Source: Actinomycetota bacterium
GTDB taxonomy: Bacteria > Actinomycetota > Actinomycetes > Actinomycetales > Microbacteriaceae
Length of the DNA: 64,000 nucleotides
Direction of reading: 5' to 3'
Assembly (NCBI GenBank): GCA_947449765.1
Contig: CANFSP010000005.1
Location: 62,001 to 126,000, forward strand
Shown: positions 10,332-17,042 of the stretch, piece by piece
Position numbering within the stretch: position 1 is the stretch's first letter
Layout: every line of letters starts with the position of its first letter
The notes under the pieces: model-generated
Told to the model about the DNA's origin: nothing
The model's input: only the letters and a program-made list of their open reading frames with translations
Databases searched by the model: none
Program-made: the position numbers and the translations under genes

Positions 10332-10733
10332 CTATCCAGCGAGAAAAGCCCTGACGCGCTTGGCATAAATGCCCTCGAGCACGAACGAGAGCGCGGGGAT
10401 GATGCCACCCGACGCCAAGATGAGCAGAGTGAGGAACGACCAGCGCATGAAGGCCCAGAGTCGGAACGAGGCAATGAGGTAGACCACATACAGCCAACCG
10501 TGGATGATGAGCACCCCGGTCGATCCGTTGATTGCCGTGACTTGCTCGTGGGGCGTCAGGTGCAGAAAACCGAACGGGCCAGCGATTTCGAGGTCATAGC
10601 CAAAGCCGTAGCGCATGATCATTTCGGCGACCAGGAGGAGCAGGAACGTTCCCGTGATGAATGACATCACCACATAGAAACGCAGGGCCCCGGGAATCTT
10701 TGGGATGTCAGCTTCGCGGGGTTGCAGTGTCAT
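10332..10733 (-). CDS. DUF3817 integral membrane protein
   Basis: This 133-residue protein has about four hydrophobic helices and the GWLYVVYL and IHGW segments of the DUF3817 family (YdzA-like). It lies 12 bases upstream of guaA on the same strand. In related Micrococcales I recall this family sitting between a SURF1 gene and guaA, so its separation from SURF1 here suggests later insertion. Function unknown. Confidence 0.75.
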   Translation of the reverse strand: MTLQPREADIPKIPGALRFYVVMSFITGTFLLLLVAEMIMRYGFGYDLEIAGPFGFLHLTPHEQVTAINGSTGVLIIHGWLYVVYLIASFRLWAFMRWSFLTLLILASGGIIPALSFVLEGIYAKRVRAFLAG

Positions 10734-10737
10734 GTGA

Positions 10738-11760
10738 CTAGCCTATGCGCTGTCGCCAGTCGCGTGGAGTGACGCCAAAATGACGCCGAAACGCTCGGGT
10801 GAACGTGGTCACATCGCTGAAGCCGGTCATGAATGCCACATCCGAAATGGATGCATGCGCCGCGGAATTGCCGAGCAACTCGGCGGCACGGGTGATGCGC
10901 TCCGTGCGGATGACGTCAGCCGGCGCCTCCCCGTGCAGCTCGAAAATCTCGTAGAGCTTGCGACGAGATACGAAGTGCGCCCGGGCCACAGTCTCGGGGC
11001 TCAGCATCGGTGAACTCAGATGCGAGCGGATGAAGTTGCGCATGGCCAGGAACAATGCCTCGTTGGTGGTCGGCATGATTGGTGTCGACTCGAACGCCGA
11101 GCGCAACATCGCCGACGCTAGCGATGTGACGATGCCGGACATCTCGAGAGACGCGGGCTCTGACAGAGCCTCGGGCTGCGCCATCAGCGACGTGACGAGT
11201 GACACGTAGGCGTCGCGGGCGGGGTTCGGGCCCGACACCTGTCGTCCGGCGACATGCCGAATCATGTCATCGGAAACGCCGAGCGCCGACCTCGACGCCT
11301 GCAGCACGATGTGACGCTGGTTGGGCTCCACATAGTTGAGCGTGAATGGTCGGTGCGTCTCGGTGACGGTCAACACCCCCGGAGAAACGTCGGTTACGCG
11401 ACCGTACTGACTGACGAACCCTCGTCCGGCGGCCTGAAGAGAGATGTGAATGTCATCAGAGAGCGAAGCAGATGCGAGGCGTTCGGTGCGATTGATAACG
11501 ATGGCCTGGTCGGTTACACCCGCGATGCTCACATCGGGGCTCAACTGGCGCATGTCTAACGATGCAGTGAAGTCACGCGCCGACTGCTCGATGGAGAGCG
11601 GAACGAAACTGGCGCTGGCAATGTCGCGCCATTCGTCGGTGTTATGTGCGGTAATGGTCGACACTGTGGTCCAATCCGGCTTCTCATATCGCCCGTAACC
11701 CCAGTATCCCGGTAATTCAGTGCGCCCGAAAGTGAGGATGCACAAATCGCCGATTTGCAT
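10738..11760 (-). CDS. AraC-family transcriptional regulator of the nitrilase/aldoxime genes
   Basis: About 341 residues: an N-terminal AraC-binding-like sensor domain and a C-terminal double helix-turn-helix (roughly the last 100 residues, ending with FMTGFSDVTTFTRAFRRHFGVTP). The frame stays open beyond the divergent nitrilase start. I use the ATG at 11760; a GTG at 11829 is possible but would leave only 12 bases between the two genes. AraC-type activators such as NitR control nitrilase genes in Rhodococcus, and this gene is divergent from a nitrilase-aldoxime dehydratase pair, so it probably senses a nitrile, aldoxime or product. Confidence 0.8.
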   Translation of the reverse strand: MQIGDLCILTFGRTELPGYWGYGRYEKPDWTTVSTITAHNTDEWRDIASASFVPLSIEQSARDFTASLDMRQLSPDVSIAGVTDQAIVINRTERLASASLSDDIHISLQAAGRGFVSQYGRVTDVSPGVLTVTETHRPFTLNYVEPNQRHIVLQASRSALGVSDDMIRHVAGRQVSGPNPARDAYVSLVTSLMAQPEALSEPASLEMSGIVTSLASAMLRSAFESTPIMPTTNEALFLAMRNFIRSHLSSPMLSPETVARAHFVSRRKLYEIFELHGEAPADVIRTERITRAAELLGNSAAHASISDVAFMTGFSDVTTFTRAFRRHFGVTPRDWRQRIG

Positions 11761-11841
11761 GCAAGCAATGCCGAGAGTGGCGCGGCTCGTGAAACCTATC
11801 GTGTAAACGTCACTGATCGCAGGACTCACTGAGGAGTATCC

Positions 11842-12840
11842 ATGGGTAAGCAAATTCGCGTTGCCGCAGTTCAGGCCGAGCCAGTGTGGCTCGATCTCGA
11901 TGGCACGGTCGATAAAACAATCGACATCCTGAAAAAAGCCGCTGCCGACGGCGTGGAACTGATTGCCTTTCCCGAAACATGGATTCCCGGCTATCCCCAG
12001 TTCTTGTGGACAGTTCCCGTGCCCGAACAGATGCCCTATGTCGGCCGTTATCACGAGAACTCACTCTCGGTGGATAGTCCACAGATGATGCGCATTCGCG
12101 AGGCGGCTCGCGACAACAAGATTGCCATCGTGATGGGCTTCAGCGAGCGCGCGTTCGGCACGCTGTATATGGCGCAAACCGCGATTGGCACCTCGGGTGA
12201 AATTTTGCTGCACCGCCGCAAGCTCAAGCCGACCCACGTCGAGCGCACGCTGTTCGGCGAGGGGGACGGATCCGACATTAAGGTCGTTGACACCGAATTT
12301 GGCCGACTCGGCGCGCTCAACTGCTGGGAGCACCTGCAGCCCTTGACCAAGTACGCGATGTACGCGCAGAACGAGCAGATACACGTTTCGGGTTGGCCCA
12401 ACTTTGGCTGCTTGGACATGGTTCCCGCGCTGAGTCATGAGGCGAACGTATTTGGCGCATCCAAGGTGTATGCCCTCGAAGGAAGCTGCTTTGTGCTTGC
12501 GTCGACCCAGATGATGAGCGACGAGGGCGCCAAGGTATTCGCCCTGGCTGATGGCTCAATCTCGCCGATCTACAACGGCGGTGGCGGCTACGCGACAATC
12601 TTCGGCCCCGATTCGGCCGTCATCTCGACACCGTTGGCACCTGACGTAGAGGGGTTCGTTACCGCCGACATCGACCTGTCTGCAATCGCGTACGCCAAGA
12701 ACGCCGCCGACCCCGGCGGACACTACAGCCGTCCCGACGTCACCCAACTGATCTTCAACAATGCGTCCCAGCGCGTGGTGGTCGGCGACGGGCAGTTCGG
12801 CACTGAGGTCGCGTTTCCCGAGATGTCGGCAGCTGACTAA
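11842..12840 (+). CDS. Nitrilase (carbon-nitrogen hydrolase superfamily)
   Basis: This 332-residue enzyme has the catalytic triad of nitrilases: E45 in FPETW, a Lys in RRKLKPTHVER (K127 by position), and the nucleophile C161 in NCWEH. Length and motifs match true nitrilases (aliphatic or aryl) that hydrolyse R-CN to the carboxylic acid and ammonia, rather than amidases. GAGGAG precedes the ATG. It is followed after three bases by an aldoxime dehydratase, the enzyme that makes nitriles from aldoximes, so the two form consecutive steps. Side-chain preference cannot be told. Confidence 0.92.
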   Translation: MGKQIRVAAVQAEPVWLDLDGTVDKTIDILKKAAADGVELIAFPETWIPGYPQFLWTVPVPEQMPYVGRYHENSLSVDSPQMMRIREAARDNKIAIVMGFSERAFGTLYMAQTAIGTSGEILLHRRKLKPTHVERTLFGEGDGSDIKVVDTEFGRLGALNCWEHLQPLTKYAMYAQNEQIHVSGWPNFGCLDMVPALSHEANVFGASKVYALEGSCFVLASTQMMSDEGAKVFALADGSISPIYNGGGGYATIFGPDSAVISTPLAPDVEGFVTADIDLSAIAYAKNAADPGGHYSRPDVTQLIFNNASQRVVVGDGQFGTEVAFPEMSAAD

Positions 12841-12843
12841 CCG

Positions 12844-13896
12844 ATGAGACACAACCCTCCCTCGCGTAAACCACACGACTGGGTTCCGCCGGTTCCGGCC
12901 TTCTCCGCGAAAATTGATGGTCCCGTGACCATGGCTTACTACGGGATTCAAAACCGTGACGACGATGCTCACGCACTCCACGAGTTTCAACAGTGGGTGG
13001 CCACCATGAGCACCGGATTCGACGCGCCCGATGTCACCGAGTATGCCGACTACGTCGACGAGCACGGGAACGCCACCTGGGTGGCAATGTTCTACTGGCG
13101 GGATGCCGCTGACTCCTTCCCACGCTGGGCTAGCCGGGACGACCACGAGGCATTTTGGTTGGCGCCCGCGCGAGAAACGGGAGGCGCAGGCTATTTTCGC
13201 GAAGTCTTCCACGTGCCCAACGATCGCCTCGAGACGCTCTACTCCGACGAGAGCATGAGCGTCGGTTCGGGTGCGGGACTGGGCGTTCACGAGGGCCCCA
13301 TCCAGTCGCACAATTACTGGGGCTCGATGCGGGACCGCATCCCGTCGTCATCGACTGATGAGTTCGCCGCGACGTTTGTGCTTTCGCAGGCACCGGAAGC
13401 GCGAACGGCAGGTTTCGGTGAGCGAGTGATCGCTTCGGGCATCGACAACCTTGCGACGATTCGGTCCGGCGAACTCTACGACGGTCTCGAGGGGCGCGAA
13501 AAGGAAGTCTACGAAGCGGAGCTCGAGCCGTCGGTTCGCGAGGGGATGCGCTACCTGCGCGACAACCCCGTGGCGAGTGGATGCCTCGTGTGCCGCCACA
13601 TGGACGAGTCCACGCCGACCGGTGAGCGTATTCCTCGAGCGTTTGCCGTGGCTCACTTCGATTCGCTCACCCGGCTTGAGGACTGGTCGGAATCACACCC
13701 TACGCACCTGCGCATCTTTGGTCGCTTCATCGAGCTGGCCCAAGAACTGCAGGGGAACATCCGCCTGCGCTTGTGGCACGAGGTCATCGTGACGACTGCC
13801 GACATGCAGCACTTTGAGTACGTGAACTGTCATCCTCTGACCGGTTTTCTCCCGTACGCACCAACGCTTCACAACCTGACCCCGACCGCACGATAA
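12844..13896 (+). CDS. oxd: Aldoxime dehydratase (phenylacetaldoxime dehydratase family, heme enzyme)
   Basis: This 350-residue protein matches the heme-containing aldoxime dehydratases (OxdA, OxdB, OxdRE) along its length. Visible landmarks are the NYWGSMRDR segment (158-165) with the active-site Arg region, IRSG around S208, the ESHPTH stretch (283-288) expected to hold the proximal heme His, and WHEV with H312 as the likely catalytic His. These enzymes dehydrate aldoximes to nitriles. The gene is coupled to the upstream nitrilase, giving the route aldoxime to nitrile to acid known from Bacillus OxB-1 and Rhodococcus. The ligand assignments are by motif, not by alignment. Confidence 0.9.
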   Translation: MRHNPPSRKPHDWVPPVPAFSAKIDGPVTMAYYGIQNRDDDAHALHEFQQWVATMSTGFDAPDVTEYADYVDEHGNATWVAMFYWRDAADSFPRWASRDDHEAFWLAPARETGGAGYFREVFHVPNDRLETLYSDESMSVGSGAGLGVHEGPIQSHNYWGSMRDRIPSSSTDEFAATFVLSQAPEARTAGFGERVIASGIDNLATIRSGELYDGLEGREKEVYEAELEPSVREGMRYLRDNPVASGCLVCRHMDESTPTGERIPRAFAVAHFDSLTRLEDWSESHPTHLRIFGRFIELAQELQGNIRLRLWHEVIVTTADMQHFEYVNCHPLTGFLPYAPTLHNLTPTAR

Positions 13897-13914
13897 GAAG
13901 AAAGAAAGTTAACC

Positions 13915-15159
13915 ATGATTGATTTCGAACTCAGCCCCGAGCAGCGCAAACTGCAGCTCGACGCGCGCGCCTTCGCTGCCACACACCTTACGAATCTGCG
14001 TCAGAAAATGGCCGGCAAGGATGCTGCGGGTCGCTTCGAGGCAACCAAAGAGGCTTATGAGGCTGCCGTGAAAGCTGGATACCTCAAGTTGCAGGTGCCG
14101 CCGCCACTCGGTGGCACGATGAACTCACTGGTGGATGTAGCACTCGTCGCCGAAGAGCTCATCGCGGTGGAGTCGAGCCTGCCCCTCTCGGTGCTCTCGA
14201 CCGGTCTCGGCATCATGGGACTGCTGTTCTTCGGCACACCTGAGCAGTACGCAAAGTTCCTCCCACCGTTCGTCAGTGGCGAAGGTGCGCCGCTGGCCGG
14301 CCTCTCGTTCTCGGAACCAGAAGGAACCGCGAACTACCACAACACCGACCCGAGCAAGGGTTTCACCACCTCCGCGGTGCTCGACGGTGACGAGTGGGTC
14401 ATCAACGGTCGCAAGATCTGGACGCCGCACGCTGCCGGATGGGGCGGGCGTCACGCTGACCTGCTCGCGGTCGCAGCCCGCGTGGGCATGGACAAGCCGC
14501 CACAAGAGTCACTCTCGATGTTCTTGGTTCCCGGAAACACTCCCGGCATCACTATCGAAGAGAACATCGAGACCATTGGACAACCCGGTGCCGAAGTGTG
14601 CATCGTTCGCTACGAGAACGTGCGGGTTCCGCGTGAAAACATCCTCGGAAATGTGGGTGACGGCATCCTCATTGCAGAAACCGCCTTTACCGCAACGGCC
14701 GGTCTCGTCGGTGCGATGGCCATCGGTGTCGCCCGCAAGGCATTTGGCATCGCACTCGAGTGGGCTCGCACGCAGACGCGCGGTGGGTCGGTGCCGATCA
14801 TCCAGCACCAGAATGTCGCCACGATTCTCTCGGACATGAAGGCCAAGATTGAGGCCGCTCGCTACCTCACCTGGAAGGCCTGCTGGAACTTCGACCGCTC
14901 AATGGGTCGCAGCCAGGAGCTCAGCCTCATCAACAAGGTGTTCACGTCTGAGCTCATGATTGGTGTCATCACCGACGCAATGCGTGTTGTCGGGGTCGAG
15001 GCCTACAAGGCGCAGACCGGACTGATGGAACTGTTGCAGGATGCCATGGCCTACCCGCTCTTCGACGGCGGAAACGTGGGCGTTCGTCGCCTGCAGCTAC
15101 AGCGTGTTCTCTCTGCCGAGGGTTATGACCAGATGAGCGCTGCGGAAGGTATCTTCTAG
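13915..15159 (+). CDS. Acyl-CoA dehydrogenase-fold flavoprotein, nitroalkane oxidase-like
   Basis: This 414-residue protein has the three domains of the acyl-CoA dehydrogenase superfamily: N-terminal helices, a middle FAD-binding beta domain (LSFSEPEGT and the IWTPHAAGW segment), and a C-terminal helical bundle. At the catalytic base position acyl-CoA dehydrogenases carry Glu, but here PLFDGGNVGVRR places D384 with R391 seven residues later. That is the spacing of Asp402 and Arg409 in Fusarium nitroalkane oxidase. The natural substrate may therefore be a nitroalkane or another nitrogen compound rather than an acyl-CoA. It follows the aldoxime dehydratase by 18 bases with its own AAGAAAG-type binding site. 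Confidence 0.8.
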   Translation: MIDFELSPEQRKLQLDARAFAATHLTNLRQKMAGKDAAGRFEATKEAYEAAVKAGYLKLQVPPPLGGTMNSLVDVALVAEELIAVESSLPLSVLSTGLGIMGLLFFGTPEQYAKFLPPFVSGEGAPLAGLSFSEPEGTANYHNTDPSKGFTTSAVLDGDEWVINGRKIWTPHAAGWGGRHADLLAVAARVGMDKPPQESLSMFLVPGNTPGITIEENIETIGQPGAEVCIVRYENVRVPRENILGNVGDGILIAETAFTATAGLVGAMAIGVARKAFGIALEWARTQTRGGSVPIIQHQNVATILSDMKAKIEAARYLTWKACWNFDRSMGRSQELSLINKVFTSELMIGVITDAMRVVGVEAYKAQTGLMELLQDAMAYPLFDGGNVGVRRLQLQRVLSAEGYDQMSAAEGIF

Positions 15160-15161
15160 AG

Positions 15162-15923
15162 ATGACCACCACACTCACCCTGATTGGCGGACCGACCGCC
15201 CTCATCGACTTTGAGGGCCTTGTCGTTCTCACCGACCCGACCTTCGACGCTCCCGGGGAGTACCCCATCCCCGGTGGTGTCCTCGTCAAGCAATCTGGGC
15301 CGGCGATGAGCATGGATGCCCTCCCGCGCGTTGACCTGATCACTCTGTCGCACGCACACCATCCCGACAACTTGGATGCTGCCGGGATGCGCGTCGTCGA
15401 GTCAGCATCGCTCGTGGTTGGTGCGCCGTTCGCTCTGGATCAGGTGGGCCACTTGACCGCGCTTGACACGTGGGAGACCACCACCGTGCAGGTGAACGGC
15501 GAAGAGTTCGTGGTGACCGCTGTTCCGGCGCGACACGGGCCTGAGGGGTGCGAAGAGATCACCGGGATTGTTTCGGGGTTTGTGATCACGGCACCATCCG
15601 GGACGAACCTCTACATCAGCGGCGACAACGCAGCTCTCGAGTTGGTTAGCGAGATTGCCGCGCGGTTCGAGCACATCGACATCGCCGTGTTGTTCACGGG
15701 TGCTGCCCGAGTCGGACTCTTCGACAATGCGCCCCTCACTCTCACCGCGGAGATGGCGGCTGAGGCGGCGCAGATTCTCACGCCGAGTGTGGTGTTCCCG
15801 GTGCACTCTGAAGGATGGGCACACTTCAGCGAAGATCGCGCGCTTCTCAATGCGGCGTTCGCGGCTGCGGGCAACGCGAATATTCTCGCGCTGGTCGGCC
15901 CCGGGGAGAGCGTGCGGGTCTAG
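15162..15923 (+). CDS. MBL-fold metallo-hydrolase
   Basis: This 253-residue protein of the metallo-beta-lactamase superfamily has SHAHHPDNLD as the metal-binding motif, a later ARHGPEG histidine, SGDNA where a bridging Asp is expected, and PVHSEGW near the end. It resembles the UlaG/YtnP-like branch of cytosolic hydrolases. It starts two bases after the flavoprotein and is the last gene of the aldoxime/nitrile cassette. A lactone, amide or ester substrate is possible; nothing in the sequence decides this. Confidence 0.8.
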   Translation: MTTTLTLIGGPTALIDFEGLVVLTDPTFDAPGEYPIPGGVLVKQSGPAMSMDALPRVDLITLSHAHHPDNLDAAGMRVVESASLVVGAPFALDQVGHLTALDTWETTTVQVNGEEFVVTAVPARHGPEGCEEITGIVSGFVITAPSGTNLYISGDNAALELVSEIAARFEHIDIAVLFTGAARVGLFDNAPLTLTAEMAAEAAQILTPSVVFPVHSEGWAHFSEDRALLNAAFAAAGNANILALVGPGESVRV

Positions 15924-15940: not shown

Positions 15941-16256
15941 CCGGCTGAGCTTCGCGTCGATGGCTGAGCCTGTCGAAGCCATCGCCGCTTGAGCTTGTCG
16001 AAGCCACGCCATCGCCGGCTGAGCTTGTCGAAATCATGCCGTCGCCGCCGGCTGAGCTTGTCGAAGCCACCGTCATCGCCGGCTGAGCTTGTCGAAGCCA
16101 CGGATGATTTCGACAGGCTCAATCAGCGATTTCGACAGGCTCAATCAGCGATTTCGACAGGCTCAATCAGCGATTTCGACGGGCTCAGCCAGCGAAGTGA
16201 AGCTCAATCAGCGATTTCGACAGGCTCAATCGGCGGAGGGGACAGGCTCAATCGGC
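15941..16256. repeat. Block of palindromic repeats in two opposed orientations, partly 22-bp tandem
   Basis: The left half carries about six copies of GGCTGAGCTTGTCGAAGCC or variants (for example at 15962, 16050 and 16081). The right half carries its reverse complement in a unit that starts GATTTCGACAGG and repeats exactly every 22 bases at 16106, 16128, 16150 and 16172, then less regularly at 16194, 16213 and 16235. The halves can pair with each other. The block lies between two convergent genes and could act as a two-way terminator. Its last unit forms the stop codon of the SURF1 gene. Confidence 0.85.
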
Positions 16257-17042
16257 GGAGAGGGCGGCGGCATCCTCTTCACGCTGTTTAGCGTCCTTGA
16301 CCAGCCGGTACCACAGATAGAAGGCCATAGCCGCAAACACCAGCCACTCGGCTCCGTAGAACACGTTCAACCAGTTGAGTGACGTGTCACTGATCGGCGG
16401 GGTCGAGACGATGGGTGTCGTTCCCGCGGGAGCATCCGACGAGACAAGGTAGCCGAAGTACGTGGGCTGGTCGAGTGCGGGCCACACGTTGATCAGCTGC
16501 GCGACCGCCATGCGCGTCATGGTTTGCGGGTCTTGCCGGGAACTCGGCTCGACCGGCGCCTCAGAGGGCATGAATCGACCCACCATCGGGGTCAACGATT
16601 GGATGACGATCTCAGATTGCATGCGCTCAACCACCGCGGTGGCTTCATCGTGCGTGGCCGTCCAGCCCAACGCAACGGGCAACACACCCGCTTCAGTGTT
16701 GGCCGCACCAATCACCCAAAAACCGGCGTTCTGGTCGTTGTAGCGACCGTCGAGAACAAGCAGCGTGTCGCGTCGCAAGAATCCGGTAACGCTGACCATG
16801 TGTCCGGCTGCCGCGTCGGTGAGGGTGTTGGCCGGAAGGGCGAGCGACTCCAGCGGAACGACCTGCTCGGTTTTGTGATCAATGACCTGCGCGTTGATGA
16901 CCGCACGTTCGAGCTGCCACTTGCCGAGCCAGGCAAAACCGCTGGCCACGGCGAGAACGGCGATCAGAGCAATAATCCAGACCGGGCGGCGGGCTACCTG
17001 ACCCCAGGTGAGCGTGGTGCGGGGCGCATCCAATTCGGTCAC
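16248..17042 (-). CDS. SURF1-family cytochrome oxidase assembly protein
   Basis: This 264-residue protein has the SURF1 layout: a helix near residues 17-37, an outside domain with GFLRRDTLLVLDGR and GYLVSS segments, and a second helix at about 229-248. SURF1 proteins help insert heme a into cytochrome c oxidase. It overlaps the end of glpD by four bases. The last codons (Ala-Asp-stop) fall inside the repeat block, so the original C-terminus may have been replaced when the repeat arrived. Confidence 0.88.
   Translation of the reverse strand: MTELDAPRTTLTWGQVARRPVWIIALIAVLAVASGFAWLGKWQLERAVINAQVIDHKTEQVVPLESLALPANTLTDAAAGHMVSVTGFLRRDTLLVLDGRYNDQNAGFWVIGAANTEAGVLPVALGWTATHDEATAVVERMQSEIVIQSLTPMVGRFMPSEAPVEPSSRQDPQTMTRMAVAQLINVWPALDQPTYFGYLVSSDAPAGTTPIVSTPPISDTSLNWLNVFYGAEWLVFAAMAFYLWYRLVKDAKQREEDAAALSAD

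Follow-up and report, generated by a model that had tools for sequence, protein, structure and literature searches.

The 64,000-nucleotide stretch analysed here (hereafter the window), from a bacterium with a small genome, carries a cassette of four enzyme genes on one strand at positions 11842-15923, with a divergent AraC-family regulator gene upstream. The enzymes are a nitrilase, an aldoxime dehydratase (encoded by oxd), a homologue of nitroalkane oxidase (NAO) and a metallo-beta-lactamase-fold (MBL) hydrolase. The cassette is established in its gene content, order, conservation and homologies. Judged from the sequences, the five genes on balance probably constitute an inducible cassette for the breakdown or detoxification of aldoximes, nitriles and primary nitroalkanes that come from plants or arthropods. 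The core of araC, nit and oxd has been described before, and our comparison suggests that the conserved NAO-MBL addition is new in the literature searched. The five genes are:

10738..11664, minus strand: AraC-family regulator, 308 amino acids (aa) from GTG 11664; AraC_binding_2 at 12-187 and HTH_18 at 227-306
11842..12840, plus strand: nitrilase (nit), 332 aa; CN_hydrolase 161.6 bits (Pfam), PDB 8uxu nitrilase 346.6 bits
12844..13896, plus strand: aldoxime dehydratase (oxd), 350 aa; PF13816 Dehydratase_hem 266.3 bits, PDB 3a15 207.3 bits
13915..15159, plus strand: NAO homologue, 414 aa; acyl-CoA-dehydrogenase N, M and C domains, PDB 2c0u 309.5 bits
15162..15923, plus strand: MBL-fold metallo-hydrolase, 253 aa; Lactamase_B_2 52.3 bits, Lactamase_B_3 also matched

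The reading frames of all five genes are uninterrupted at these places in the list of open reading frames, and the intergenic gaps measure 3 bp between nit and oxd, 18 bp between oxd and the NAO gene and 2 bp between the NAO and MBL genes. A sequence-only reading of this DNA had named the products as an AraC regulator, a nitrilase, an aldoxime dehydratase, an enzyme of acyl-CoA-dehydrogenase fold and an MBL hydrolase, and had described the enzyme genes as closely packed. Pfam and the list of frames agree with these identities, and the shared strand and gaps of 2-18 bp bear out the packing.

The first two enzymes retain the residues typical of their families. Aligned with 3a15, the oxd product keeps the counterparts of all four residues that we take to be, in this numbering, the proximal haem-ligand His299, catalytic His320, Ser219 and Arg178. 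Nitrilases have a CN_hydrolase fold with a Glu-Lys-Cys triad; both domain and triad are present here, with the motifs FPE, KLKPTHVER and LNCWEH retained in the alignment with 8uxu. The locus thus has the makeup of an aldoxime-nitrile pathway cluster, oxd and nitrilase with an AraC-type regulator alongside.

The third enzyme had been proposed to resemble NAO and to carry its catalytic pair, and both proposals held. When the flavoprotein was compared with PDB sequences, the best seven distinct chains were nitroalkane oxidases (309.5 to 292.6 bits) and the next match, the best acyl-CoA dehydrogenase, scored 140.2 bits. A structural model built from nine aligned proteins (of 18 first tried; pLDDT 88.9) retrieved NAO structures at Foldseek ranks 1-10, with a query TM of 0.92-0.94; acyl-CoA dehydrogenases followed from rank 11 on. 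The Fusarium NAO residues Asp402 and Arg409, which PDB titles name, with Ser276, as study targets, correspond to Asp384 and Arg391 of the flavoprotein; Tyr398 of NAO is also Tyr here, and Ser276 is replaced by Thr, which retains the hydroxyl. Since the 409 place is likewise Arg or Lys in 12 of 12 aligned acyl-CoA dehydrogenases, the telling features are the Asp and the overall match. The 402 place is Glu in all 12 of these dehydrogenases, and the flavoprotein has Asp, in a DGGN motif, in place of the EGT motif.

A tree of 35 proteins set 23 NAO-like proteins apart from 12 acyl-CoA dehydrogenases with support of 100/100. It omits duplicate and partial loci as well as four A. vitis loci that are close to L106; of the 76 loci with scores of at most 200 bits, the 12 best were kept and the other 64 left out. 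The flavoprotein falls in a 13-row group with Fusarium NAO (97/94), in which the Fusarium branch is long and Glu-type proteins are included. By the residues at the two catalytic places, the 23 NAO-like proteins divide into Asp/Arg (15), Glu/Arg (5) and Asp/Gln (3) types. The Glu-type branch, with EGSN or EGGN for DGGN, comprises L005, L006, L095, L123 and L145, of which L095 adjoins an aldehyde dehydrogenase gene; the branch with Gln for Arg409 comprises L098, L103 and L104, and the plasmid loci L103 and L104 have an adjacent Rrf2-type regulator and a second acyl-CoA dehydrogenase family gene nearby.

These data also bear on whether the flavoprotein could be an ordinary acyl-CoA dehydrogenase, with the CoA ester of the nitrilase's acid product as its substrate. 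The superfamily is the same, and relatives are annotated as acyl-CoA dehydrogenase family proteins; however, the gap in bit score, the replacement of the catalytic Glu by Asp and the position inside the NAO-like group all oppose this, and none of the six proteins scanned at the site matched an acyl-CoA ligase or enoyl-CoA hydratase family. The identity as an ordinary acyl-CoA dehydrogenase was ruled out by bits, motif, tree and fold, and we regard an acyl-CoA role as highly improbable.

The earlier proposal depended on whether the two additional genes accompany oxd and the nitrilase gene in other genomes, and this association is conserved in two genera. Among 349 genomes of the family (all counts include the window's own), oxd occurs in nine and NAO in six; NAO lies directly behind oxd in five of the six, the other (G756) being without oxd. 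The complete order araC-nit-oxd-NAO-MBL is found in G002, of the window's genus, and in G531, of a second genus, while in G720 the cassette is present in full but divided by a contig break within oxd; the MBL gene follows NAO in all three. In G638 and G682 the contig end falls inside NAO. The chromosomal site is the same in loci L096 and L128, which read guaA, DUF3817, cassette, SURF1-like, glpD, guaB3, guaB (the names guaA, SURF1, glpD and guaB were assigned by reading the frames). Neither oxd nor NAO was found in G014 (second genus, 82% complete), and in a survey of 99 relatives the only genomes with NAO were G000 and G002.

Because a second species and a second genus show the same order of the four enzyme genes at a synonymous divergence (dS) of about 1 to 2, with spacing and site also conserved in the two genera, chance packing of the enzyme genes was ruled out, and the presence of NAO and MBL in the block is not accidental. 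Between the window and G002, nonsynonymous divergence (dN) is 0.024 for nit, 0.061 for NAO, 0.160 for oxd, 0.264 for MBL, 0.130 for araC and 0.050 for guaA; against G531 the values are 0.079, 0.109, 0.373, 0.298, 0.314 and 0.076 in the same order (guaB was left out of this comparison, and L142 out of the oxd alignment). NAO and the nitrilase are therefore constrained nearly as tightly as guaA, which does not hold for oxd and MBL. The second genus has an additional CN_hydrolase gene that faces the cassette from between the MBL and SURF1-like genes, at L128:5080-6075 and at the end of L120; it scores 160.9 bits and matches the cassette nitrilase at 36%. It was not found at that place in the window, in which tandem repeats of 30/31 bp and 22 bp occupy much of positions 15978-16257 in the gap between the MBL and SURF1-like genes.

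We propose that the cassette would work as follows. The AraC protein would sense a pathway compound and act at a box between araC and nit. The haem enzyme encoded by oxd would dehydrate an aldoxime (R-CH=NOH) to a nitrile (R-CN), which the nitrilase would hydrolyse to the acid R-COOH and NH3. In the flavoprotein, Asp384 would deprotonate the matching primary nitroalkane (R-CH2-NO2) at its alpha carbon, and the anion would be oxidized through FAD to R-CHO, nitrite and H2O2, in line with an NAO-type reaction, the mechanism of which is treated in PMC3509576. One of the aldehyde dehydrogenases of the genome, in which 15 matches were found, could then convert the aldehyde to the same acid as the nitrilase route. 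The MBL hydrolase might act on a conjugate, lactone or amide entering or leaving the route, which is a guess.

A more specific version, which we put forward only tentatively, is a joint pathway in which aldoxime, nitrile and nitroalkane of one plant skeleton would all be converted to one acid, the motif Trp-Thr-Pro-His of the flavoprotein would mark a new substrate class of the NAO clade and the MBL hydrolase would open a conjugate. The premise of the sequence-only reading that plants make both aldoximes and nitroalkanes is compatible with one plant, Plumeria, whose volatiles are listed as including phenylacetaldoxime, benzyl nitrile and 2-phenylnitroethane together, in a review that also ties phenylacetonitrile, 2-nitroethylbenzene and phenylacetaldoxime to plant defence (PMC11469922). 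On the bacterial side, the available part of a paper on a nitrotoxin degrader terms many of the enzymes involved orphans (PMC9552603).

At the place of its metal motif, the MBL hydrolase reads SHAHHPDNLD, one residue longer than the HxHxDH type and with the last His replaced by Asn; the DN also occurs in near relatives. The subfamily occurs on 43 plasmid records, 30 of them from Streptomyces, and no relatives were found in a scan of viral contigs. Four of the plasmid records were examined around the MBL gene: the three annotated stretches show neither NAO nor oxd there, and the fourth is unannotated. A single-sequence model reached a pLDDT of 41.8 and was not used for fold search. An MBL gene near NAO in L007 was considered as a relative and rejected, as it matched at 29% and reads as NAPE-PLD-like, of another subfamily.

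The window's phylum is probably Actinomycetota, as the two best matches of guaA in the plasmid collection are actinobacterial (Tsukamurella 71%, Nonomuraea 69%) and the next stands at 59%; Microbacteriaceae as the family is a guess. Elsewhere in this phylum, oxd was found in four and NAO in two of 396 genomes, the window's own included in both counts. Of 369 genomes in the phylum to which the gammaproteobacterial genome G494 belongs, 3 have NAO, among them G494 itself, which was chosen for having it. These NAO counts may be low because four or five candidates were scored per genome in genomes rich in acyl-CoA dehydrogenases. Nine NAO genomes outside the cassette genera, from several phyla and not a random draw, so that comparison with the 4/396 figure calls for caution, were asked for oxd: three have it (G490, G491 and G1115), and none was found in G492, G493, G494, G756, G283 and G812. 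G495 and G496, in which no oxd was found, were kept out of this count since their loci are ordinary acyl-CoA dehydrogenases. The two genes lie on the same contig about 250 kb apart in G490 and about 210 kb apart in G1115, and on different contigs in G491. Across 72,556 plasmids, NAO is present on 15 (E 1e-60), oxd on 34 (1e-20) and both on five records, two of which belong to one A. vitis strain, F2/5.

The neighbours of these genes vary. An NAO-like gene of the Asp/Arg type on a Shinella plasmid adjoins an aldehyde dehydrogenase gene and has nirBD about 6 kb away, a context that fits the predicted aldehyde and nitrite products of NAO. An aldehyde dehydrogenase gene is also adjacent to the NAO-like gene of Rhodococcus USK13 (Glu type) and one gene away from that of Sulfitobacter (Asp/Gln type). 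On five A. vitis or Allorhizobium plasmids examined, two regulator genes and one for a molybdopterin oxidoreductase come after the NAO gene, and the NAO stretches of Bradyrhizobium, Rhizobium and R. erythropolis showed neither oxd nor aldehyde dehydrogenase; the Rhodococcus JS3073 record is unannotated. In the stretches extracted around oxd, G490, G320 (one of its three oxd places examined at length), G373 and G651 (both loci) have a nitrilase within about 2 kb of oxd but neither NAO nor MBL, and G560 and G491 show neither nitrilase nor NAO; all three plasmid oxd loci examined have nitrile hydratase and amidase. Plasmids of E. coli (NZ_CP021881.1) and Klebsiella pneumoniae (NZ_CP020902.1) carry genes annotated as phenylacetaldoxime dehydratase family protein.

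Several findings weigh against the degradative function proposed above. Where NAO has Trp-Pro-Ser-Asn, the four full-length cassette proteins have Trp-Thr-Pro-His. All five cassette proteins that reach the place of Ser171, which we take to lie at flavin N5, have Pro there (including the partial G638; the G682 fragment stops short), and none of the 19 other NAO-like proteins compared does. The pair Ser276 and Ser171, a secondary and non-defining mark of NAO, is Thr and Pro here, and other bacterial members vary there also; we therefore term the protein an NAO homologue and not a proven NAO, and because the Ser171 place is altered its substrate or rate may not be that of the Fusarium enzyme. Membership in the NAO-like clade does not fix activity, since the catalytic places vary within it, and of the three NAO-like genes with an aldehyde dehydrogenase gene nearby, two have variant catalytic types. 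In the genome, neither a NIR_SIR (nitrite/sulfite reductase) domain (control found in 11 of 14 genomes) nor a FocA/NirC-type transporter (positive in 3 of 14) was found. The predicted nitrite thus has no evident use here, and as a waste product it would make the NAO step more likely to serve carbon use or detoxification than nitrogen gain. Within the window's genus, neither oxd nor NAO was found in G001.

The fixed Pro with its neighbouring His, confined to cassette proteins, the variable catalytic residues of the clade and the missing nitrite reductase domain, together with the position of the gene right behind oxd, would suit an NAO-clade, carbanion-forming flavin oxidase that has moved to another pathway compound, for example the alpha carbon of a nitrile, aldoxime or acid, and does not turn over nitroalkanes. 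Nevertheless, the equivalents of Asp402, Arg409 and Tyr398 and the hydroxyl at 276 are retained, and Fusarium NAO stands in the same clade, with the qualification of its long branch and of the Glu-type members, and we judge such a shift rather unlikely. The aldoxime-nitrile core and the NAO-MBL pair could also have separate functions and share a promoter at one site in the family. G520, of a third genus, carries araC-nit-oxd alone at the same site, with oxd abutting the SURF1-like gene and without NAO or MBL. NAO elsewhere lies mostly beside a regulator of its own (AraC type; Rrf2 type in some) and not beside oxd, and MBL relatives in three annotated stretches have neither. Tight linkage of NAO and oxd beyond the two cassette genera was seen on only one plasmid, A. 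tumefaciens pAtAF1_95, and even there the two are not one operon because two opposite-strand regulators intervene. Separate functions are hard to square with an order and tight spacing retained across two genera at this dS, with the strong constraint on both nitrilase and NAO, and with the higher frequency of oxd in NAO genomes (3/9, a non-random sample) than in the phylum at large (4/396), and appear distinctly unlikely. The joint pathway for organic N-O compounds suggested by the sequence-only reading keeps its footing in gene content, NAO affinity and conservation, and is weakened by the core without the pair in G520, by the single Agrobacterium plasmid and by the lack of a NIR_SIR match.

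Two further features accompany the regulator of the putative degradative cassette:

10332..10733, minus strand: DUF3817 membrane protein; PF12823 59.8 bits
11740..11753, plus strand: conserved box GCACAAANNGCCGA, a candidate regulator site in the divergent araC-nit gap, present in 7 of 7 aligned gaps

The DUF3817 gene adjoins araC in all six other loci that reach that far (L096 and L128-L132), and its product probably stands outside the pathway as a constant neighbour of the regulator. Of the cassette boundary set earlier at 10738-15923, the places of the genes held, and the AraC frame extending to 12054, which overlaps the nitrilase gene, is probably too long. The more likely start is GTG 11664 (308 aa), as domain fit and homologues point there: three of four alignments in the second genus start at this codon, and those of G002 and L131 start further upstream, at residues 27 and 34 of the 371-aa frame. 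Trimming the upstream part raises the identity to G002 from 76.7% (344 residues) to 83.2% (304 residues), which indicates that this part is poorly conserved. The regulator matches NAO-type and oxd-type regulators about equally (best 110 and 105 bits), which gives no preference to descent from the one or the other.

The exact sequence of the box GCACAAANNGCCGA occurs only once in the genome, and a looser putative second copy, spotted by eye, lies 21 bp on at 11761-11774. At one mismatch or fewer the genome holds 17 matches (23 for a reversed control pattern), and at two mismatches the window holds 13 against 8.9 expected, a number reached by 12 of 100 shuffles, so that only the exact, conserved copy counts. 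A wider regulon was dropped, given the single exact match and near-matches fewer than in the control.

Two enzyme groups that were treated apart in the literature searched are here joined in one operon. The conserved operon offers a direct test of whether bacteria handle oximes, nitriles and nitroalkanes as one substrate family, and the cassette provides bacterial NAO-type enzymes with an altered flavin pocket. The suggestion that the combination is undescribed agrees with our search, which most subscription journals lie outside: no paper was found on NAO together with aldoxime dehydratase or aldoxime, or treating both phenylacetaldoxime dehydratase and acyl-CoA dehydrogenase. Four papers contain both 'nitroalkane oxidase' and 'nitrilase'; in one of them, PMC4767706, the former term stands in a reference title. 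Of two reviews of aldoxime dehydratase, the excerpts of PMC8955678 lack the terms 'acyl-CoA', 'dehydrogenase' and 'lactamase', and those of PMC11568032 lack 'acyl-CoA', 'nitroalkane', 'dehydrogenase' and 'flavin'; the latter cites a 2024 review on, by its title, aldoxime, nitrile and nitro-compound enzymes of plants and arthropods.

The cassette resembles several known systems in part. Its flavoprotein shares full-length homology and fold with the nitroalkane oxidases of Fusarium oxysporum (2c0u) and Podospora anserina (3mkh), with a query TM of 0.93 to both, and keeps Asp402 and Arg409 of the Fusarium enzyme, but identity in the structure alignment is 40%, Ser171 and Ser276 are changed to Pro and Thr, and the context is a bacterial operon. 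MBL hydrolases on Streptomyces, Embleya and Arthrobacter plasmids belong to the same subfamily (42-49%), with DNLD for DHLD in four aligned relatives, and differ in having neither NAO nor oxd nearby in the three annotated stretches examined. On A. tumefaciens pAtAF1_95 (NZ_CP124965) an NAO homologue (45%) lies 2.3 kb from oxd on the same strand; unlike here, regulators lie between them, nitrile hydratase and amidase genes lie downstream of oxd, and no MBL or nitrilase is annotated in the 19 kb around. The closest match to the core is in the clusters of Bacillus OxB-1 and Bradyrhizobium LTSPM299, where the AraC-family regulator NitR, nit and oxd stand side by side; no flavoprotein or metallo-hydrolase is named there in the excerpted text (PMC8955678), whereas in the present operon both follow oxd.

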